DNA of 64,000 nt. It comes from Lentisphaera araneosa HTCC2155 (GTDB lineage: Bacteria; Verrucomicrobiota; Lentisphaeria; Lentisphaerales; Lentisphaeraceae). The notes below the pieces were generated by a model. The model was given only the letters and a program-made list of their open reading frames with translations. It made no database searches and had not been told where the DNA came from. This document shows positions 7,085 through 54,099 of the stretch, one piece after another (the first letter of the stretch is position 1; each line of letters begins with the position of its first letter). The position numbers were made by a program, and so were the translations under genes. Location of the stretch: positions 124,001-188,000 of the forward strand of contig NZ_ABCK01000006.1 of the NCBI RefSeq assembly GCF_000170755.1, in the 5' to 3' direction.

Positions 7085-7102
7085 AATAAAGAGGAAATGG
7101 AA

Positions 7103-10100
7103 ATGATTAAAAAAATAGGTCTAATAATTCTTTTATTAGCTACATTCAGTCAATTAACTTTGTCAGCAGGACCAAAAAAATTATGCTGTAATGTCACGGG
7201 TGGTGGCAATGGTGGTGGCTGTGATGGTAGCTCTGGAGGAGATGAGTCAGGCGGCGATGAGTCAGGCGGCGATGAAGATCCAGACGATCCTGGTTGTGAC
7301 GATACAGAGGATGACGGCACAGATGAAGAAGATGACGAAGCTCCAGATACATGTTCAAACTCAGGCGGGAGTATCATCGATAACCTCACTTACAACTACA
7401 TTCACAATGTAACTGATTTCAGTATTGCTAGTGGAACTACAGCATGTGCATCATGTGGGAGCTCATCTCCAGTAGATACACTAACAGGGGTAAGAATTGT
7501 TCGTTATCACCAATTTAGACATATGTCGGAACAGGGGTCATTTGGTCCCGGTGTATTTATTAACTGGGATTCTAATTTAACTCTATTTGAAGTTGGTGAC
7601 ATTCACCCAGAAACGCGCATCGATTTTTTTGAGCCTGCCGAAACTTCTGTACGCCGTTATTTTAAAGAAGGCGATGTCTTTAAGGATACATACCTTAAAA
7701 CAACTGATCGCATGGAACTTTACGACACAAACGGTGACCTTACTACCTCGATGATTGATGCTCAAACAGCTGTCGTTTTCACACTAAGTCAACGCACATT
7801 TCATTTCGAGCTCTATGAAGTCGAAGAAGGTATGAAAAAAGGGCGTATTGTCGCTTATCGTGATCAGCGTGGCTACGGTATAGACTTAACTTATCAAATT
7901 CCTGCAAATGCTCAGGTAAATGACCCTAGCGAAAAAAGAAAAATAGAAACAATTAGCGATGATAATAATCGTCAGCTTACATTTACTTACTTCCCTACAC
8001 AAAAGAACTCTCAATGGGTTGTTTCTTCAATTCAATTGCCTAATGGATCTGCCATTCAATACAACTATGGGGCAGGAGAAACAGGATCAATTTCATCTAT
8101 CAATTACCCCGATGGTACTAGTTCAACTTTTTCCACTTCTGTAACATCGGATAATTTAACAAAATTTTCTATTTTTGAAGCCGGTGAAAAAGCTTCTCAC
8201 AGAAACAAACATGTGTATCTAGATAATAACTTTGTTGCCGATACTAGCGGGCAAGACGGTGTTGTTTTCTTTAATAGTGCAGCTCTCTTAATCACCAAAC
8301 TGACCAAAGGTGATGACGAAGAACTGGCATACCAAAATTTTGAAGCTCCAGATAAAATTAACAATCGCCTTGTTTACGAAGGTGGACAACAAATAAAGCA
8401 CGTGACCCCAACATTCAATAGGTATGGCTACTTAGGTCCTAATGCAACGGTGACTTTCGATACTATTGATTTAAATACAGGCTACTATGATTTTGACTTT
8501 AAAAGTGAAACTAAATTTGTTCAAACAAAAGGATCTATTACCGCCAACTTTCAAAGTCGTCCAACCTATGCCCGCAATATTAAAGGGGAGTTCCATACTT
8601 ATGCATACAACGACAAGAAATCTGTAACCAAAAAATCTTATGCTGATGGATCTTCCAAAAAATGGCAGAAAAATCAATTTCAACAAGATACAGTAGAATG
8701 CGATCGCGAAGGTCGAGTAACTCTAAAAACTTATGATGACTGGGGTAATCTTCTCAGTAAAAAAGTCGGGCTCAGCTGTAGTCCGCAGGGCTTAGTTGGT
8801 CAAGAATATCTTCCTGGCTTGGATACCAAGATATATTTTTATAGTAGTAAATCTCAGCTTCCTACAGACTTCGCAGGACTTCCTTTACTTGATTCATTCA
8901 TTGAACACAACTTCAACTCAGATGTCGATAATGGTGAAGGCAAAATGGCTTTTTCTTTCGATGGTCAAATAGAGATCACCAATTCAGGTGATTACACATT
9001 CTATTCACAAACCACTTTGGGTGGGGCAAAACTCTATATTAACGATCAATTAGTAGTCGATAATGAAGCTTGGAATAAAGCCAGTGATGAAGACGCGGGC
9101 AAGGACTCAAGTATTCCAATTAATCTTTCTTCGGGTTTTCATTCAATTCGTGTCGAGTTTTATACCCATGTAAAATACGATGAACTCGGACTTTTAAACA
9201 TTACTTACACGGGGCCAGACACACTAGACTTAGATTCAAATCAGCAGGAAATAGCTATCCCAGACACGGCGCTAACTCACCTTTCTACTGCGGATGATTA
9301 TTCCGAGGAATTTGAGGAGACAAGCGAAACCGCCACCTATCTCTACGAATATTATCCAGCGGGTCACATCAATCAACACCTTCTTCGTTACGAATGGGAT
9401 GCCAAAGGCAACAAGACCGAACATATTTATGATGAAAATAACCAAATTCTCGAAATCCGTGAACCATCTGATAATGGTTCTGGCTCAATTGTTAAAGCTG
9501 CATACACCTATGATTCAGCACGTCGTCAAACATCATCTACCGATGCTCTAGGTCGTACAACCGCCTTTGAATACGATAATCGCGATCGTGTAATAAAAGT
9601 TACCTATAACGACGCATCAACCGAGTTAAGAATTTATGGAACGGGTGCAGATTCAAATCTCATTGTAAAATCGAAGGACCGTAATGGTAACACCACCAAG
9701 TATACCTACGACTCACTCGGCCGTGCTATTCAGACCATTAGAGCATACTCGATTATGAATACAGATGGTTCATCAGAAACAGTAAATCCACCTAATCTTC
9801 AATCAATTGAAAACTGCACCTACGTTCAGGGGACGGAACTAAAAGCGTCTTGTACAATTAATGGTGAGAAAAAAGAATACGAGTATGACTACCGCAAACG
9901 TATTGTAAAAACCAATCGTTACCCCAAAAACGGCATCGTACTTACTTCTGAAAAAGTCTATAAAAACAATAAACTCTTACAAGATAAATCACCCTATGGC
10001 CATAGTACTTTTTATGCTTATAGAGAAAGCGATTCTAAACTAATCAGAACTTTAAAGACAACTTGGAATAATTACTTACCTTCAGTAGGCGGTGAGGGGT

Positions 10101-13100
10101 TTATTTTAAGTCGTACTCGTGACTCACAATTAAATGCTAAATTTATGATCACCGACTATGAGCTTGATGCCACAGGTTTAACGACTGCGACTATTGATCC
10201 CCGTGGCATTCGTCATGAGATGGTTTACGACTCACGAGGTCGTATGATTGCTTCAACACAAGCTGTCGGTTCAAGCGTTCAAGCTTCTACTTCTCGCGAA
10301 TACGATGCCAACTCCAATGTCACAGCATCAATTGACCCTCGTGGCATTCGTACAGAAATGACTTACACTGCCCGTAACCTTATGGCTTCGCAAACTGTGG
10401 CAGCAAGCACTTCCGACGCCGCGACTTCCTACTACACTTACTACGATGACAAACGTCAAAACACGGTGACGGATTATAAAGGTAACTTTAGCCAATCTGT
10501 GTGGCACCAATGCTGTGGTCGTCCTCAAGCCAATATCGACCAAGCAGGTAACGGAACAATCACCAATAATGACTTTTACGGCAACATTACGCACTCAGCT
10601 GCAGTGGAAGACGTACTTGCTCACGCAGGAACTTACCACGATCCAATCAATGCTAAAACTCTCACCGAGACCACACGCCTCTATGACTCACGCAATCGCA
10701 TGGTCGCCCAAACGGTTTGGCTTCAGCCTCTTGGCTACGTTGACCCCAATAATGTGCCAATCGCTACCGACTCAGCCCAAGGCTTAACGACTTTCTATAC
10801 CTACTTTGATGAAGTCACGGGCCACCCTGAACTCGCCTCAATTATTGCGGAACTCGCAGCCGACGGTATTGTTATTCCTGGGAGCGCCGGCGGCTCGCCG
10901 GCATCTGATGGCTCAGCCGTCATGGTGCAAAATCCTGCTGGTGAACTCTCGGTACAGATCTCCGATGGCCTCGGTCGCTCAGTCGCTTCCGCCATTCTTG
11001 AGCCATCCAATTATTCAGTGATTACTTGGAATACCACAGCCTACGATGCGATTTCCGCAAATGGTCTCGTGGAAACAGCCTCCATCGATGCCCTTAATAA
11101 TACCTCAAAATCTCGTGCCGATGGCGCGGGCCGTGTACAAGAATCAGTCGATGCCCTAGGAAACATCTCCACAGCTTCCTACGACGCGAATTCCAACCGC
11201 ATTTCTTACCGCGATGCCTCTGGTGTCGGCCAAGACTGTATCTTCGACGCTCGCAATCGCGATGTCTCTTGTGTGGATACCGCTGGTTCAACGACCACAA
11301 AAGTCTTTGATGCCAACAATAACCTTGTCTCAGTCACCGATGCAAAGGGCCAAACTTCTACATACGTCTATGACCTTCGTAATCGTAAGATCTCTCAAAC
11401 TGATCGCATTGGCGGAACAACGACTTTTGCTTACGATGCCAATAATAACCTCACATCCATTACCGATGCACAGGCGTCAGTCACAACTTATGTTTATGAT
11501 CTACGTAATCTGCAAACATCCACTATCTACCCAGCCGGAAGTGCCGGTGGTTCAACAACTGTAAGTACCGTTTATGATGCCCTCGGTCGTAAAGCCCAAG
11601 TGACGGATCAACTCGGAGATACAGTAACTTATACTTACGATATGGTTTCTCGTATGCTCAATCGTGATTACTCCGACAACACGTCGGATACCTTCACCTA
11701 CGATGACGCCTCCAGACTTGTTTCAGCCACCAAGGGTCGTTATAGTAACACTATTTCTTACACTTATGACCAGGCAGGTAGACGTTTGAGCGAAACACAA
11801 ACACATTCTGGGAGCGCTGGCGTCTCGCCGGCTTCTTTTACAATCTCCCACACTTTCGACGTAGCTAATCGTGTAACTTCCTGCACATACCCAGATGGCA
11901 CGGTTCTCAACAAGACCTACACTGACCGCAATCTCCTCGAAGGCCTCTCCTACGCTGGGACCGCGGGCGGCTCGCCCGCATCAGTAGTGGACTTTACATA
12001 CGACGCCTCAATGCGAGAAGCTTCCCGTGAATACGGCAATGCGATCACCACAGACCGCACTTACAATGACGACAATACCCTGGGAACGCTGAGCTCCAGC
12101 TCGGCATTATCCTTCACCTACGCTTACGACGCCAACAAAAACGTCACCGGAGAAACCGTCCAAGGAGCGCCGAGCTCCAACTCGGCATTATCATGGACGG
12201 CAGCCTTCGACAATGAAGATCGTCTCTCACTATGGACTCGTTCTGGGAGCGCCGGCGGCTCGCCGGCATCATCAATGTCATGGAACCTCGACCTCATTGG
12301 TAACTGGTCATCCGTCACTCGCAATGGTTTGACTGATACTCGTACGCATAATGGCGTACACGAACTTACTGGGAGCGCCGGCGGCTCGCCGGCATCATAC
12401 AGCTACGATGCCAAAGGTAACCTCACTACTAATAAGTATGGTTCAACCCTCACTTGGGATATTGATAATCATCTCCAGTCGATTCTTTACTCAGGGATGG
12501 ATCCTGCAGATGCACCAAGCTATGAATACGACGCCCTAGGCCGTCGTCTCTCTAAGTCTCATTTAGATGGTTCAAAAACCCTCTATGTCCTCTGTGATCA
12601 AAAAGTCTGCATGGAATTTGATTTATTTGTTGATGGGAACACTGGAGCTTTACTGCCCGCGGTGGCTCACCGCAAGTACGTCTGGGGCACCTATGTGGAC
12701 GAACTCATCGCCATCATCCCTGCCGAAGGCATTTCAAATACCCTCTACGCTCACCAAGATCGTCAATACAACCTCAGAGGCTTAACTGACTCCAACGGAG
12801 CACTTGTAGAATACTATGCCTACAGTCCCTATGGTGAACGTACTGCCTACGACTCCAATGGAACTGAGATAGATCAAACTTCCACTATGCTAAAAACAGA
12901 CTATGGCTTCACTGGTCGTAGATATGATATGGAAAGTGACCTTTGGTACTTTAGAGCAAGGTACTTTGATACTGAAATGGGTAGGTTTGTGAGTAGGGAT
13001 CCATTGGGTTATGTGGATGGTGCGAGTTTATATGCGGGGTATTTTGCTCAATTTTTAAGTGTTGATCCGAGTGGGACAAAGTGTCAAGTTAGGATTTTCG

Positions 13101-13522
13101 TAGGACACCATTATGAAACTGGTAGATGGATCGATAAGCAAAACCCTAAACAATGTGATGCAATGGGTGCGGTTAGTTGCCACCCTGATGGTAATAATGA
13201 GAGTGTACCCGAAAAAAATCAAATTGGGGGAATGGTAGGTGCATTTGATAAACTACTGAGAAACTTCACATACACTAAACAGGAAGATAACGGCTATTTA
13301 CATTGTAAATTTGTTAAACAAGCTATTAAGATTGCAGTGAAGAAGGCTATACGTCATGCGAAATCATTTTGTAAAAAAGAAGGGGGATGCTGTAAAAACG
13401 TAAGATTTGCAGTTATATGCTCTACTTGGAGAAAACCTGGTCCAAGTGGTCGTTTACAAAAAAGTGCTAAAGATTGTGGAGGTAGCTTATGCAGAGATTT
13501 TGTGTTAAATTGCAAAAAATAA
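7103..13522 (+). CDS. Secreted RHS/YD-repeat protein with PA14 domain and Cys-rich C-terminal tip
   Basis: The start chosen is ATG 7103, because GAGG at 7091-7094 is well spaced for it and too close for ATG 7097. The 2139 residues comprise a signal peptide (IILLLATFSQLTLSA), a Gly/Asp/Glu-rich linker (about 30-85) and YD/RHS repeats. A PA14 domain (about 565-703) interrupts them. They run to the classical RHS core end (YFRARYFDTEMGRFVSRDPLGY, written here as YFRARYFDTEMG then RFVSRDPLGY) near 1950-1980. The last ~149 residues form a different tip with about 11 cysteines. RHS proteins form a shell that encloses a C-terminal toxin or effector. The tip DNA is more AT-rich and uses AGA/AGG codons unlike the body, a sign of tip exchange. 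Seven palindromic repeats are inserted in frame between residues about 1260 and 1765. Confidence 0.93.
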   Translation: MIKKIGLIILLLATFSQLTLSAGPKKLCCNVTGGGNGGGCDGSSGGDESGGDESGGDEDPDDPGCDDTEDDGTDEEDDEAPDTCSNSGGSIIDNLTYNYIHNVTDFSIASGTTACASCGSSSPVDTLTGVRIVRYHQFRHMSEQGSFGPGVFINWDSNLTLFEVGDIHPETRIDFFEPAETSVRRYFKEGDVFKDTYLKTTDRMELYDTNGDLTTSMIDAQTAVVFTLSQRTFHFELYEVEEGMKKGRIVAYRDQRGYGIDLTYQIPANAQVNDPSEKRKIETISDDNNRQLTFTYFPTQKNSQWVVSSIQLPNGSAIQYNYGAGETGSISSINYPDGTSSTFSTSVTSDNLTKFSIFEAGEKASHRNKHVYLDNNFVADTSGQDGVVFFNSAALLITKLTKGDDEELAYQNFEAPDKINNRLVYEGGQQIKHVTPTFNRYGYLGPNATVTFDTIDLNTGYYDFDFKSETKFVQTKGSITANFQSRPTYARNIKGEFHTYAYNDKKSVTKKSYADGSSKKWQKNQFQQDTVECDREGRVTLKTYDDWGNLLSKKVGLSCSPQGLVGQEYLPGLDTKIYFYSSKSQLPTDFAGLPLLDSFIEHNFNSDVDNGEGKMAFSFDGQIEITNSGDYTFYSQTTLGGAKLYINDQLVVDNEAWNKASDEDAGKDSSIPINLSSGFHSIRVEFYTHVKYDELGLLNITYTGPDTLDLDSNQQEIAIPDTALTHLSTADDYSEEFEETSETATYLYEYYPAGHINQHLLRYEWDAKGNKTEHIYDENNQILEIREPSDNGSGSIVKAAYTYDSARRQTSSTDALGRTTAFEYDNRDRVIKVTYNDASTELRIYGTGADSNLIVKSKDRNGNTTKYTYDSLGRAIQTIRAYSIMNTDGSSETVNPPNLQSIENCTYVQGTELKASCTINGEKKEYEYDYRKRIVKTNRYPKNGIVLTSEKVYKNNKLLQDKSPYGHSTFYAYRESDSKLIRTLKTTWNNYLPSVGGEGFILSRTRDSQLNAKFMITDYELDATGLTTATIDPRGIRHEMVYDSRGRMIASTQAVGSSVQASTSREYDANSNVTASIDPRGIRTEMTYTARNLMASQTVAASTSDAATSYYTYYDDKRQNTVTDYKGNFSQSVWHQCCGRPQANIDQAGNGTITNNDFYGNITHSAAVEDVLAHAGTYHDPINAKTLTETTRLYDSRNRMVAQTVWLQPLGYVDPNNVPIATDSAQGLTTFYTYFDEVTGHPELASIIAELAADGIVIPGSAGGSPASDGSAVMVQNPAGELSVQISDGLGRSVASAILEPSNYSVITWNTTAYDAISANGLVETASIDALNNTSKSRADGAGRVQESVDALGNISTASYDANSNRISYRDASGVGQDCIFDARNRDVSCVDTAGSTTTKVFDANNNLVSVTDAKGQTSTYVYDLRNRKISQTDRIGGTTTFAYDANNNLTSITDAQASVTTYVYDLRNLQTSTIYPAGSAGGSTTVSTVYDALGRKAQVTDQLGDTVTYTYDMVSRMLNRDYSDNTSDTFTYDDASRLVSATKGRYSNTISYTYDQAGRRLSETQTHSGSAGVSPASFTISHTFDVANRVTSCTYPDGTVLNKTYTDRNLLEGLSYAGTAGGSPASVVDFTYDASMREASREYGNAITTDRTYNDDNTLGTLSSSSALSFTYAYDANKNVTGETVQGAPSSNSALSWTAAFDNEDRLSLWTRSGSAGGSPASSMSWNLDLIGNWSSVTRNGLTDTRTHNGVHELTGSAGGSPASYSYDAKGNLTTNKYGSTLTWDIDNHLQSILYSGMDPADAPSYEYDALGRRLSKSHLDGSKTLYVLCDQKVCMEFDLFVDGNTGALLPAVAHRKYVWGTYVDELIAIIPAEGISNTLYAHQDRQYNLRGLTDSNGALVEYYAYSPYGERTAYDSNGTEIDQTSTMLKTDYGFTGRRYDMESDLWYFRARYFDTEMGRFVSRDPLGYVDGASLYAGYFAQFLSVDPSGTKCQVRIFVGHHYETGRWIDKQNPKQCDAMGAVSCHPDGNNESVPEKNQIGGMVGAFDKLLRNFTYTKQEDNGYLHCKFVKQAIKIAVKKAIRHAKSFCKKEGGCCKNVRFAVICSTWRKPGPSGRLQKSAKDCGGSLCRDFVLNCKK
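10880..10906 (+). repeat. In-frame palindromic repeat 1 (GSAGGSPAS)
   Basis: The unit GGGAGC-GCCGGCG-GCT-CGCCGGC forms a 7-bp perfect stem after a GGGAGC header. It is 27 nt long, so it adds exactly nine codons to the rhs gene. Confidence 0.85.
11810..11836 (+). repeat. In-frame palindromic repeat 2 (GSAGVSPAS)
   Basis: Same 27-nt unit, with stem arms GCTGGCG and CGCCGGC. The single change in the left arm leaves a T-G (U-G in RNA) wobble, so pairing is kept. Confidence 0.85.
11957..11983 (+). repeat. In-frame palindromic repeat 3 (GTAGGSPAS)
   Basis: Same 27-nt unit with arms GCGGGCG and CGCCCGC. Compared with repeat 1, both arms changed together, so the stem remains perfect. Confidence 0.85.
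12081..12106 (+). repeat. In-frame palindromic repeat 4 (SSSSAL type)
   Basis: TGGGAACGCTGAG, loop, CTCGGCA: a second palindrome subtype with the same header style. The GCTGAG/CTCGGC arms pair with one wobble. It is followed by TTATC, as is repeat 5. Confidence 0.7.
12163..12187 (+). repeat. In-frame palindromic repeat 5 (APSSNSAL type)
   Basis: AGGAGCGCCGAG, loop, CTCGGCA: the same subtype as repeat 4 but with a perfect GCCGAG/CTCGGC stem. It is translated within the YD-repeat region. Confidence 0.7.
12245..12271 (+). repeat. In-frame palindromic repeat 6 (GSAGGSPAS)
   Basis: Identical to repeat 1 over the first 26 nt, which points to recent copying or gene conversion within the same gene. 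Confidence 0.85.
12371..12397 (+). repeat. In-frame palindromic repeat 7 (GSAGGSPAS)
   Basis: Identical to repeats 1 and 6 in header, stem and loop. It lies only 99 nt after repeat 6. Confidence 0.85.
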
Positions 13523-14127
13523 CTATATTAACTATTTTTTTCTTATCTTATCATGTTTATGCTACAGAAGTATTTACTTTTTGTGAATATATAATATTTG
13601 AAAAAGATAGTAGTAAAATGTTAGATGATAATAAGAGGTGTTTGAAACTAACCGACTACAATTTTTCCGAATCAAATCTAAAAAGTAAACTCAAATCACA
13701 TCTTGATAGAAGTGTTTACCCTCGAAGTAGTGAATCAATTAGTTATATAGTTTTCAATCAATCCGAAGAGAACTATTGGACAATTTCTTTAGGTAATTAT
13801 GGCTATGAATTAATCATACATAAATCTAAAACCAAAGGTGATTATATAGTTTGGCCTAACGGTGAGTATAGTAAGACAAGTTATTATGGAACATTTAGAG
13901 ATAAGAAAGCGTACCTTATTTTCTTTGATGCACTTCTAAAAATCAAAAATCCTACAAAAGATATAAAGCGACAAATTAAGTATATGCAATATTCGTACCC
14001 TGAGTTAAAACAATTGGTAGAATCATCTCAGATAGAAGGAGAAATTGTAGGAGACAATAAAAATAAGTCAGAAGTTAAATCTCTCCCTCCAAAAACTAAA
14101 ACCGATGAAGACCAACCCACCAAATAA
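13489..14127 (+). CDS. Putative secreted immunity protein for the RHS tip
   Basis: This 212-residue protein overlaps the rhs 3' end by 34 nt in another frame, the position typical of an immunity gene for an RHS-type toxin. It begins with a signal-like segment (ITILTIFFLSYHVYA, cleavage before TEVF), so it would act in the periplasm. The middle is a mixed alpha/beta domain with many Tyr and Lys (YWTISLGNYGYELIIHKS). The tail (about 185-212) is Lys/Pro/Thr-rich and probably disordered. The gene is strongly AT-rich, like the rhs tip and unlike the rhs body, which supports their transfer as one unit. No family is recognised. A TTG at 13510 is an alternative start. Confidence 0.65.
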   Translation: MQRFCVKLQKITILTIFFLSYHVYATEVFTFCEYIIFEKDSSKMLDDNKRCLKLTDYNFSESNLKSKLKSHLDRSVYPRSSESISYIVFNQSEENYWTISLGNYGYELIIHKSKTKGDYIVWPNGEYSKTSYYGTFRDKKAYLIFFDALLKIKNPTKDIKRQIKYMQYSYPELKQLVESSQIEGEIVGDNKNKSEVKSLPPKTKTDEDQPTK

Positions 14128-14134
14128 CTTACAG

Positions 14135-14169
14135 AAAAAGTATCACCCCCAAAACCATCGGTGCTTTTT
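14135..14169 (+). terminator. Hairpin terminator after the RHS operon
   Basis: AAAAAGTATC pairs with GGTGCTTTTT over 10 bp with wobbles, 7 nt after the stop codon. The A-run and T-run make it usable on both strands. Related hairpins recur at 15546, 15744 and 15869. Confidence 0.6.
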
Positions 14170-14212
14170 CTAAACCCTTAAGCAAAAGCCCCCAAAGCTT
14201 TTAAAACAATTT

Positions 14213-14285
14213 GGCAACCTTTCCTCGTTATTACAGCGAGTGTTGTGAAGTAGGAGTACTTCGTGAGGAAGGGTTGCCTTTTTTT
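14213..14285 (+). terminator. Large branched terminator hairpin
   Basis: GGCAACCTTTCCTC pairs with GAGGAAGGGTTGCC (14 bp, one wobble) and is followed by seven T. Inside it a second small hairpin, GAAGTA-GGAG-TACTTC, is visible. A copy at 15632-15679 has lost the right arm. Confidence 0.75.
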
Positions 14286-15478: not shown

Positions 15479-15905
15479 TCAGAGATGACCCTTTCTCAGA
15501 AAACTAAAAAAAGTTCATAGGTTGAATTAAATCAATAACTTATAGAAAAAGTATCGGCATTAAAAACGTCGGTACTTTTTTTAAACCCTTAAGCAAAAGC
15601 CCCCAAAGCTTTTAAAACATTTTGGCAACCTTTCCTCGTTATTACAGCGAGTGTTGTGAAGTAGGAGTACTTCGTGAGAGAGATGACCCTTTCTCAGAAA
15701 ACTAAAAAAAGTTCATAGGTTTAATTAAATTAATAACTTATAGAAAAAGTATCGGCATTAAAAACGTCGGTACTTTTTTTAAACCCTTAAGCAAAAGCCC
15801 CCAATGGATGAGCCTTTCTCAGAAAACTAAAAAAAGTTTATAGACTAAATAAAATCAACAACTTACAGAAAAAGTATCGACACTTAAAACGTCGGTACTT
15901 TTTTC
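15466..15905. repeat. Tandem array of terminator-bearing repeat units
   Basis: Three units each contain CCTTTCTCAGAAAACTAAAA followed by a hairpin AAAAAGTATCG...CGGTACTTTTT (11 bp; at 15546-15582, 15744-15780 and 15869-15905). Units 1 and 2 then continue CTTAAGCAAAAGCCCCCAA. Unit 1 also carries a right-truncated copy of the branched terminator (15632-15679). The same modules occur after the rhs operon at 14135-14285. The rest of the gap to 16072 contains nothing recognised. Confidence 0.75.
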
Positions 15906-16072
15906 TTTTTAGCTGATTCTAATGCCTTGGCCTCCCGCTGGTCGTCACTAAGCGCTGACGCGATAAAGACAAAAAATAAATCATATGATTTGCTTATTGA
16001 ATAAGATTGACTATTCTTAAATTTCCAAATTGGGAATTTTTAGTTGTTGTTTGGTCCAATAAGAATATATTA

Positions 16073-16363: not shown

Positions 16364-17176
16364 ATGAAACGTTATTTGGATACAGAAAGTGATCTAAGTT
16401 TTTATCATGTAATAATCAAAGTTCCTGACAATACCTTTGGGAATAGTAATTATGCTTTTCAAGCAGAACATAAACGTCGCTTAAAGGATTTATTTTTCTG
16501 GCTAGAAGAGATTTATGAACTGAAATGTCTCTGTTACACCATCATGAGTACCCATGCTCATTTTATTATTTGTCGAGAAAAAGATCTTGAATTTAAGTTG
16601 AGTCTAAAAGAGCTCGCCTTGCGTGAGCAAAAGTATCGTGGACGAAAATACCCTTTGGATGCTCGAAGTTGCGAAGTGCGCAATTTTAGATTTCGTTTAA
16701 ACGATTTAAGCGATTTCATGGGGAATTTACAAAAACGCTTTACCCGATGGTACAATAAGCAGGGGGATCGAAGTCGAAGAGGTCAACTTTTCAATCATAA
16801 TTTTAAGTCAGTTTTACTTAAAGATACAAAATCATTAATACACTGTATGCAGTATGTGGAAATGAATGCCGTTCGAGCACAAATGGTCAAAACACCGAGT
16901 GAGTATGAGTTCACATCATGGTCTGATTTTAATAAGAAAAATTCTTTAGGAGAGCGCTTAAAAAGAAGTTTCATCTATTGCTTAAGAAAGTTTAATGGAG
17001 GATTGCAGGACATGACTGACCTGCAGGTTTTTTCACTTTATACTGCTCGCCTCAAGTTAATATGTCGGGCGTTGTATGAATTAGGTGACTTTTCTAAATT
17101 AGATAGGACGATTGTGAATGAGTTATTTCTGAAGAAGAAAAAGTGGACAGCTGCTGAAGCTGTTGCTTTGGAGTAA
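16364..17176 (+). CDS. REP-associated tyrosine transposase (RAYT, Y1/HUH family)
   Basis: This 270-residue protein has the HUH nuclease layout of TnpA-REP. The His-X-His pair is HAH at 64-66 (MSTHAHFIIC), and the likely nucleophile Tyr130 lies in RWYNKQGDRSRRGQLF. The block CMQYVEMNAVRAQMVK is typical of RAYTs. These single-copy domesticated relatives of IS200/IS605 transposases nick single-stranded palindromes with a conserved header and are thought to spread REP/BIME-like repeats. AAGGAG 9 nt before ATG supports the start. This window holds many header-plus-palindrome repeats, including seven inside the rhs gene, so this enzyme is the obvious candidate for mobilising them; that link is inferred. 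There are no flanking inverted repeats, as usual for RAYTs. Confidence 0.88.
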   Translation: MKRYLDTESDLSFYHVIIKVPDNTFGNSNYAFQAEHKRRLKDLFFWLEEIYELKCLCYTIMSTHAHFIICREKDLEFKLSLKELALREQKYRGRKYPLDARSCEVRNFRFRLNDLSDFMGNLQKRFTRWYNKQGDRSRRGQLFNHNFKSVLLKDTKSLIHCMQYVEMNAVRAQMVKTPSEYEFTSWSDFNKKNSLGERLKRSFIYCLRKFNGGLQDMTDLQVFSLYTARLKLICRALYELGDFSKLDRTIVNELFLKKKKWTAAEAVALE

Positions 17177-34984: not shown

Positions 34985-36400
34985 TTAGCGAGAGTGAATG
35001 ACTTTCCTATTCCGAGAAGAATATTGTATGGCTTTTCGGACTCGTAAATGGCCTAACACGACAAAGATGTTTCCTATTGCGACCAATGGGGGAAAAGAAG
35101 TTGTCAGATCGCTGCGCTTGCAGATCGTTCGCAAGCTCACTGCAGATCGGCCTCCGGCCTGCAGAAAAAAGCTGGGAGCCCCGCATTCCATGCGGAAGTT
35201 GAATCTACATTTCTATCGAAGTTGTCAGATCGCTTCGCTTGCAGATCGTTCGCAAGCTCACTGCAGATCGCTCATTTCATTCGCTGCAGAAAATTCCTGT
35301 AGGTCATAGTTATAATAGAAGATTCATCTTACTTTATTCTGTGAAAATCTGGGTAATCTGTGGATATTTTTTAAATCATGGGACCTCACGCAGAGCCGCG
35401 AAGTTCGCAGGGGAAATCAATAAATGTTTATAATTCCCTCGAAGAGGGGGGCATATTATTAGCCTGGGGTGACTGGAAGGAACCCCAGGAAAATGTTTCG
35501 TAAACAAAAACCATCCTCGATGAGGGCGAATGATTGGCCACCTTCGGCGACCAAACAGGTGAAAATATCGTGTTGTGCTGGGAGCTCCGCATTCCATGCG
35601 GAAGTTGAATCTACATTTCTATCGAAGTTGTCAGATCGCTTCGCTTTCAGATCGTTCGCAAGCTCACTGCAGATCGCTCATTTCATTCGCTGCAGAAAAT
35701 CCCTGTAGGTCATAGTTTATAAGAGAAGATTCATCTTAAATTACTTACTTTATTCTGTGAAAATCTGAGTAATCTGTGGAGGGTTTTTAATGATGGGACC
35801 TCACGCAGAGCCGCGAAGTTCGCAGGGGAAATCAATAAATGTTTATAATTCCCTCGAAGAGGGGGGCATATTATTAGCATGGGTGAACTGAAAGGAGATT
35901 CAGAGTTATTATTCTGTGAAAACCTGAGTAATCTGTGGATGATTATTTTTAATAATGAGACCTCACGCAGAGCCGCTGTGACGCAGAGCTCTTTTCTGTG
36001 TTGTTTAGTGTGTTCTGTGGTTTAAATATTTACCACGAAAGATCACAAAAAAGCACGAAAGTTAATGACCAAATATGTGGTTTTGAAATTCTTCTCGCTA
36101 AGTTTTTTGTTTGAGAGCTTAATAAGTAACTAGAGTTCAATGGGCATTTTTTAGCTTGATCCACAGATTTGACAGAACAACACAGAGGATTTAAAAAGGT
36201 AATCTCAAGTCTTTCTTCTGTGAAAATCTGAGTCATCTGTGGATACCCTATGCCGTACCTTTTGCACTCCGATACTCTTTTAGTACTTTTCTTCCTAGCA
36301 CTTCGTACTAGGCTGTGTTATGCCGTACCTCCGGTACTCCAAGAGCATAGTTAGGGCGCCGATCAAAAAAACACGCTTTAATCGGCGGTAAAAAGAGAAT
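34985..36400. repeat. Mosaic intergenic repeat cluster A
   Basis: These 1.4 kb contain no credible gene. A unit of about 300-400 bp occurs twice in direct order (about 35171-35462 and 35577-35882). Its modules are a GGGAGC-header palindrome (35171-35196, 35577-35602), CAGATCGTTCGCAAGCTCAC, TCTGTGAAAATCTGnGTAAT, ACCTCACGCAGAGCCGC and TTCCCTCGAAGAGGGG. Further copies of single modules run to 36240, including ACCACGAAAGATCAC, and two TGCCGTACC...GGTACTC-type palindromes follow. The same modules appear in clusters at 39990 and 44500. I recall similar motifs in the genomes of unrelated phyla, which could not be checked here. Confidence 0.8.
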
Positions 36401-39989: not shown

Positions 39990-40330
39990 TTGGGAAAAGT
40001 CGTCAGATCGTTACGCTTGCAGGGGAAAGTAAGTTGTCAGTTCGCTGCGCTTGCAGACCGTTCGCAAGCTCACTGCAGATCGCTCATTTCATTCGCTGCA
40101 GTTTAAAGCCGTGTTATGCTGGGAGCTCCGCATTCCATGCGGAAATTGAAATGGTGTCTCTCTCGAAGAGGGATGATGTCATTAGCCTAGAGTGACTGTA
40201 AGGAACCCCAGGAAAAAGTTTCGTAAAACAGCTTCCTCGAGGAGGGCGAATAATTGGAGGTTTTGGAAGTGAGCAGGGGTTTTGCAAGGGCATGGGGTTC
40301 ACATTATCGTGTGGAAAAGGATGCTACTGA
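39990..40330. repeat. Mosaic intergenic repeat cluster B
   Basis: These 340 bp repeat the modules of cluster A: GTTCGCAAGCTCACTGCAGA, the GGGAGCTCCGCAT-TCC-ATGCGG palindrome at 40119-40144, and AGTGACTG...GGAACCCCAGGAAAA. The rest of the divergent region 39885-40545 is AT-rich and must contain promoters for both flanking genes, but none is clear. Confidence 0.75.
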
Positions 40331-40545
40331 AGCTTGAATTACAAGCTGGTATGCAGTCCAGGTCTGTAGTTTCGTAGAGGGCAGTTATCGATAAATACAA
40401 GGTTGTATGCTTTATTGCTTGCCGTAACCTTTATAAAAGACTTAAAAGTATAAAATTGTATTTTTTATTGATTTGTGAGTAATGTTTTTTCAATCGTTTC
40501 GTATAAAGAGTGTAAAGGCATTGTGAATTTAAACTCGGAGCTCCC

Positions 40546-53848: not shown

Positions 53849-54099
53849 TTTTTTACCAGTTTAATATAATGCTGAAAGCATGACTCAATTTAGCCCAATG
53901 GCGTAAGCCTTGGAATAATAATGTACATAGTCATATTATGAATGCTGTAAGCATGGATTAGAGCACTATGCCGTTCCTTCAGAACTCGTAATTTTTTTGT
54001 TTCACATATACCTAGCTCTCACGAGCTCGGCTAATTTATACCGTGCTTTCAGCACTCAAAAGTAAATCTAGTTCATCGCCAGATTAATAGCTCTGACGA
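53760..54099. repeat. Array of short 4-6 bp palindromes
   Basis: Many small hairpins occur in series: GTTC-loop-GAAC, ATGCTGAAAGCAT, ATGCTGTAAGCAT, GTTCCTTCAGAAC, AGCTCTCACGAGCT, GTGCTTTCAGCAC. The array continues beyond the MITE at about 54376-54430 (GTGCATACAGCAC). Related units lie near 36249 and 36318 (GTACCTCCGGTAC). It fills the gap between the Mo/W operon and the prepilin gene apart from the MITE. Confidence 0.6.

Follow-up and report, generated by a model that had tools for sequence, protein, structure and literature searches.

The window, which is the whole 64,000-nucleotide stretch of Lentisphaera araneosa HTCC2155 DNA that we analyzed, carries on its forward strand an rhs gene (7097–13522) that encodes a 2141-amino acid protein with RHS/YD repeats and a PA14 domain and is the host of the repeats described here. 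Profile searches returned RHS_repeat (E 2e-54) and PA14 (E 5e-11) from Pfam as well as YD_repeat_2x and Rhs_assc_core from NCBIfam. The RHS repeats, the Rhs-associated core domain and the predicted beta-shell fold place the product among the RHS/YD-repeat proteins. The 3′ end of rhs is overlapped by a 212-amino acid frame (13489–14127) without a Pfam or NCBIfam match, which is possibly the partner of the variable rhs C-terminus.

A preliminary description of this DNA, made from its letters alone, had claimed that seven GC-rich header-plus-palindrome units lie in rhs with the frame kept and that five of them are 27-nucleotide units encoding GSAGGSPAS-type peptides. We found all seven within 10878–12397, every one in sense orientation and in frame, and the five 27-nucleotide units start at 10880, 11810, 11957, 12245 and 12371. 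In these five, the header GGGAGC is followed by a 7-bp stem, a 3-nucleotide loop and a tail, and the translation follows the pattern G-S/T-A-G-G/V-S-P-A-S. Unit 1 (10880–10906) reads GGGAGC-GCCGGCG-GCT-CGCCGGC-ATCT, encodes GSAGGSPAS and scores 39.6 bits with the covariance model R1 introduced below; units 6 (12245–12271) and 7 (12371–12397) are built like unit 1, encode the same peptide and score 41.3 bits each. Unit 2 (11810–11836; GCTGGCG-TCT-CGCCGGC) encodes GSAGVSPAS at 35.1 bits, and unit 3 (11957–11983; header GGGACC, GCGGGCG-GCT-CGCCCGC) encodes GTAGGSPAS at 36.5 bits. Units 4 and 5 share a second stem type, GC(C/T)GAGCTCC-A(G/A)CTCGGC, and use another reading frame: unit 4 (12080–12109; GCTGAGCT-CC-AGCTCGGC) yields LGTLSSSSAL at 24.8 bits and unit 5 (12164–12190) yields GAPSSNSAL with a weak score of 17 bits. 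Three of the units are identical over 28 nucleotides, from CT through ATC (CTGGGAGCGCCGGCGGCTCGCCGGCATC). A further site on the same strand, 11537–11560, encodes GSAGGSTT and has no palindrome, the palindrome having gone mostly through third codon positions with the peptide retained; judged from its sequence, this is probably a decayed eighth unit.

Chance does not account for these units. A 26-mer search allowing up to three mismatches gave five matches versus 0.00 in shuffles, GGGAGCNCCG occurs seven times in the window versus 0.16 expected, and rhs contains four perfect 7-bp hairpins, where synonymously shuffled versions of the gene have 0.77 (maximum 3). In rhs, and in the ABC-type ATPase linker described below, each stem type is read in the frame without W and R.

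The units belong to a dispersed REP-like family, defined by CTGGGAGC plus a 7-bp stem, of which the genome holds roughly 150 copies or more. Across the assembly (6,023,180 bases in 81 contigs), CTGGGAGC itself was found at 102 places compared with 45 for a reversed-pattern control. R1, which we built on 19 hand-picked units, returned at least 146 hits at E≤1 in the genome search (150 candidates scored). The family search proposed in the preliminary description did find the family elsewhere and, apart from rhs, almost wholly between genes. The header copies that it had placed between genes in this window are likewise real; they lie on the forward strand at 35172–35200 (stem CCGCAT, 36.0 bits), 35578–35606 (stem TCCGCAT, 36.7 bits) and 40119–40147 (stem TCCGCAT, 37.0 bits). 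The intergenic segments 35100–36300 and 39990–40350 are crowded with several further repeat types, each adjoining a GGGAGC copy. The window also matches the Acido-Lenti-1 RNA (RF01687) at 54011–54056 (62.2 bits) and 36294–36338 (44.1 bits).

In the assembly stretches surrounding hits there were 162 matches at E≤0.5, and a simple longest-frame call on the best 157 placed 119 outside frames and 38 inside. The latter comprise seven copies in rhs, five in an ABC-type ATPase gene, eight within the frames of four RAYTs and 18 in short frames, none longer than 209 amino acids, that we do not regard as genes. Besides RAYT genes, the clear hosts are thus this rhs gene and the linker of one ABC-type ATPase only. 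Seven copies in the 6.4 kb of rhs compare with 0.17 under a uniform expectation, a ratio to be read with the caution that the events may be non-independent. The principal stems of the family are GCAGGCA, GCCGATT, C/TCCGCAT, GCGGGCG and GCCGGCG. Stem cells are paired in 93% of cases versus 65% in shuffles and 32–45% when the partner is slid, and 39 stem cells versus 13 are altered on both sides; these figures lean upward because the alignment was hand-picked for hairpins. Among full-length hits, 87 of 111 have CT directly 5′ of the header and 89 of 111 have the header GGGAGC itself; GTAG and CGTC are absent among the header variants. The family resembles REPs in its 20–40-nucleotide unit, conserved 5′ motif, hairpin and many, chiefly intergenic, copies; it lacks the GTAG/GTGG or CGTC 5′ tag and we place it in neither described superfamily.

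Repeats of the family occur in all five genomes searched from the same taxonomic family (32–110 hits each) and in 34 of 145 genomes sampled across the phylum Verrucomicrobiota, many of these with one hit only. In one congener (G005), two loci (L297 and L290) contain head-to-tail repeat arrays with 32- and 54-nucleotide periods, which shows that the repeat multiplies in tandem as well. A sample of 59 hits from this congener gave no convincing additional host gene, and a 241-amino acid frame full of repeats (L303) looks spurious as a host.

The ABC-type ATPase gene (C41:16204–18024; L105:4205–6025) carries its five copies in a C-terminal linker that is long and repetitive. In two congeners, the orthologue has family repeats in the same linker, and the association is therefore old. 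Here the units multiply along with a 195-bp tandem duplication. The linker consists largely of translated dispersed repeats, including GGGAAC hairpins and CCACAGATTTCACAGATCAACACAGAT (EPQISQINTDE), the latter being part of another genome-wide repeat found at 16 places with at most three mismatches versus none in the control.

RAYT frames on four other contigs (C22, C26, C15 and C38) have inverted family copies with related stems at one or both sides, and family copies are also found inside these frames, in frame. A fifth, on C2 (L114:5607–6242), has no internal copy but carries the second stem type, GCTGAGCTCC(A/C)GCTCGGC, on either side. Since rhs units 4 and 5 have this stem type, rhs holds repeats from at least two RAYT families. 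Scores against REP_Tyr_transpos (NF047646; cut-off 80 bits) were 97.2 for C22, 82.5 for C26, 92.0 for C15 and 95.5 for C2, and these four share the HuH motif MPNHVH and the Y motif YI(H/M)xNP. A cognate RAYT flanked by usually inverted copies, as expected of REPs, is thus found on C22, C26, C38 and C15, and on C2 for the second stem type. Copies inside RAYT genes (L098 on C22, L100 on C26, L104 on C38 and L093 on C15) recur at two positions, N-terminal in sense orientation and between HuH and Y in antisense; the C38 gene also has two copies in a 54-nucleotide tandem. The N-terminal in-frame peptides of the C38, C15 and C26 RAYTs are GSAGGSPA, GSAGVSPA or GAPHSNA, and the antisense HuH-to-Y peptides of C22, C15 and C38 are AGGSPALP, AGETPALP and AGEPPALP. 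The stem and loop of rhs unit 3 are those of the C38 RAYT. For GCCGGCG-GCT (units 1, 6 and 7), no identical stem plus loop was found beside any RAYT that we identified; C22 has GCCGGCG-ACC/ACT and C38 has GCGGGCG-GCT. Every one of the 16 sampled genomes of the phylum that have at least five family hits also has a RAYT match, versus 91 of 145 overall (p 5e-4). Among the best 30 RAYT loci of that sample one or two are near family repeats, one of them weakly, and the GGGAGC header therefore belongs to a subset of RAYTs.

The preliminary description had tied the repeats to a RAYT nearby, and this link held in part: dispersed repeats do flank RAYTs on other contigs, whereas the gene that it named, a Y1 transposase-like gene at 16364–17176 on the forward strand, is only a distant RAYT relative. 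We judge that this gene is not the partner of the repeats. Its match to REP_Tyr_transpos (48.1 bits, E 1e-12) falls under the cut-off, no family repeat lies within 3.9 kb of it (the nearest end at 12397 and start at 35172), and the stretches searched around its look-alikes at L047–L051 show no copy within about 3 kb. The flanks of the RAYTs on other contigs, by contrast, carry the stem types seen in rhs. Upstream of the gene there are three 126-nucleotide direct repeats at 15481–15929 (98% and 72%) and two 145-nucleotide repeats at 14123–14267 and 15534–15678 (92%).

To place the units on the protein, we used an AlphaFold2 model of the residues encoded by 10700–13000, computed from an 11-row alignment (mean pLDDT 84, pTM 0.80). 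The model is an RHS shell resembling those of T6SS Rhs proteins, TcC and teneurin (best E 6e-40). Nearly all of its strand-to-strand loops have four to five residues, and among the approximately 45 loops between model residues 100 and 600, those of seven to eight residues are repeat units exclusively: 370–377 (unit 2), 489–496 (unit 5) and 516–523 (unit 6) with eight residues, and 420–426 (unit 3) and 561–567 (unit 7) with seven. Unit 4 occupies a strand end plus a four-residue loop, unit 1 is coil in a low-confidence loop segment, and the decayed unit (residues 280–287) falls in an irregular loop region at 278–285. The coil fraction of the units is 0.72 versus 0.46 for random placement, and 0 of 20,000 draws were as high. 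The model thus suggests that each rhs repeat copy is translated as a short, small-residue loop between two beta-strands.

The preliminary description had also proposed a comparison with rhs homologues lacking the repeats, and the outcome was mixed: some loops carry family repeats, often with other stems, and other loops lack them. We compared three relatives from the same taxonomic family at about 50–55% identity, L195 and L196 from one genome and L198 from another; the L196 gene is broken into short frames. Together they contain eight in-frame units, one of which (L198:1112) is weak at 13.6 bits, and six of the eight lie in loops occupied here (p ∼3e-4 if loops are equally likely). The shared sites are those of units 1 (L195), 2 (L198), 4 (L195), 6 (L196) and 7 (L198 and L196), and a further loop common to L198 and L196 accounts for the other two units. 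At shared sites the stems mostly differ between species yet mostly stay paired. L195 has another stem type at site 1 and a near-identical unit at site 4, L198 has GSAGSLPAA at site 2 and GCAGACA/TGTCTGC at site 7, L196 has ACCGGCG/CGCCGGT at site 6, and site 3 is a gap in the relatives. A distant rhs gene of the congener G005 has one unit, 5′ of a YTYEYD strand, and every clear rhs or ABC-linker copy across five genomes is in sense orientation. Outside the taxonomic family, 27 rhs stretches taken from ten genomes rich in the repeats scored 17.3 bits at most, and the second rhs paralogue on C9 and the Planctomycetota homologue L205 are without units, which contradicts a general preference of the repeats for rhs genes. 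None of the rhs relatives offered an empty site at high identity, so the evidence for insertion is indirect; exact boundaries are unobtainable since the relatives are too distant and two congeners have no full rhs orthologue. Net loop growth relative to the ∼50%-identity relatives is often three to six residues, not nine. The shared sites fit repeated insertion into loops that tolerate it as well as old insertions whose stems have since turned over.

Our preferred reading, to which we assign a probability of about 0.74, is that REPs mobilized by RAYTs entered rhs and that selection filtered them for orientation and frame. The units would be REP-type elements, each made of CT, GGGAGC, a hairpin and a short tail and immobile by themselves, that RAYT (TnpA-REP) enzymes with genes at other places in the genome would mobilize as single-stranded DNA. 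Copies would insert beside CT dinucleotides at many places, and those landing in genes would mostly be lost. The rhs copies would have survived because they fall in beta-strand turns, in sense and in the frame that gives small residues (GSAGGSPAS), not the one that gives WERRRLAG. At least two RAYT families would have contributed repeats to rhs, and the identical copies could stem from further insertion or from copying within the gene. As the header is preceded by CT and the five 27-nucleotide rhs units end in CT or CA, insertion after a CT target could add a frame-neutral 27 nucleotides; against this rule, intergenic tails are not consistently CT or CA, and unit 4 is unlike a 27-nucleotide CT-to-CT/CA unit. 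A stronger version of this reading is possible but doubtful: the barrel turns may permanently offer RAYT-moved hairpins of several families a place to land, the same loops having been repeatedly filled, or fitted with new stems, as the genera diverged. If so, a selfish repeat would have come to provide a large shell protein regularly with Gly-Ser extensions of its loops.

Several other explanations have to be weighed against RAYT-driven insertion with selection. The three identical units in a single gene, and the ABC-linker units that multiplied with a tandem duplication, would fit a spread in rhs mainly by YD-repeat recombination or gene conversion after two or three founders, with no later RAYT action. 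We think this unlikely: unit identity ends at CT and ATC and the flanks diverge at once, which fits copying of the unit only, and rhs holds at least two stem types that match different RAYTs. We consider it quite improbable that these are ancient insertions retained because they are useful as DNA or RNA hairpins, for instance for translation pausing of the large barrel, mRNA protection or as recombination sites, with stems compensating at a conserved site. The same loops do carry other paired stems in other genera (GCAGACA/TGTCTGC, ACCGGCG/CGCCGGT), the ABC-linker repeats persist among three congeners, and the six residues of unit 4 that are identical in L195 are all encoded by the same codons there (45% outside units; chance ∼0.008). 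However, raised synonymous conservation as a sign of hairpin selection is confined to unit 4, codon identity across all units being not raised (6/14, 5/16 and 0/5), and the decayed unit at 11537 lost its hairpin yet kept its peptide. The C9 paralogue and rhs regions of other families are without units, and rhs therefore does not need them.

The remaining two alternatives are far weaker. That the gene at 16364 placed the repeats is highly improbable; it is the nearest Y1 transposase-like gene and retains distant REP_Tyr_transpos similarity, but it reaches 48.1 of the required 80 bits and both it and its look-alikes lie in surroundings free of family repeats over the distances given above. Native Gly/Ser-rich loops, resembling the repeats by chance or through GC-rich codon choice with no mobile element involved, are barely credible. 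RHS loops are often Gly-rich and some of these loops are Gly/Ser in relatives, but 28-nucleotide blocks identical at three places, a fixed header, a genome-wide family with intergenic copies and the excess of perfect hairpins over synonymous shuffling contradict such an origin.

What we describe is a clear case of mobile non-coding repeats turned into protein sequence, in which a protein fold allows the insertion sites to be located, frame and orientation reveal the selection filter, and related genera supply a time series of rhs loop repeats. The suggestion in the preliminary description that a repeat family doubles as a protein-coding insert was right, and REPs inside genes had already been reported (PMC3733652; PMC6006769). 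Di Nocera et al. (2013; PMC3733652) described REPs that carry GTAG or CGTC tags and are associated with tyrosine transposases; some of these REPs occur within genes that keep their frame, notably in Opitutus terrae. The text makes no mention of Lentisphaera or rhs. The present family is similar in its short palindromes, conserved 5′ tag, many mostly intergenic copies and transposase link, but its tag is GGGAGC, neither GTAG nor CGTC. Quentin et al. (2018; PMC6006769) described a subclass 2.4 of TnpA-REP with REPs inserted in its own gene, typical REPs having GT[AG]G feet. The four RAYT frames here that hold their own repeats in frame are candidate members by their in-gene REPs: copies between HuH and Y, a trait of that subclass, are present in C22, C15 and C38, the C26 copy is N-terminal only and C2 has none. 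The header GGGAGC differs from the GT[AG]G of typical REPs.

The TnpA-REP enzymes of REPtrons reportedly cleave at CT or CA (PMC8266576). Like those systems, the family here combines a hairpin with a 5′ guide motif and has CT before its header in most copies, the cleavage rule being compared by eye. We know of no biochemistry for the GGGAGC hairpin. Rickettsia palindromic elements, as cited in PMC3733652, are palindromes translated in frame inside many genes. The units in rhs are likewise palindromic elements translated in frame. RPE-1 is longer. The literature searched contained no account of REPs in rhs, nor of repeats tied to RAYTs in Lentisphaera. REPs within genes, RAYT genes included, are known already. 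The GGGAGC-headed family and its RAYTs in Lentisphaeraceae seem to be new, and so do the seven copies in a single gene, mapping to RHS barrel loops, and the occupation of these loops in other genera. GGGAGC is thereby added as a REP header with candidate partner RAYTs.
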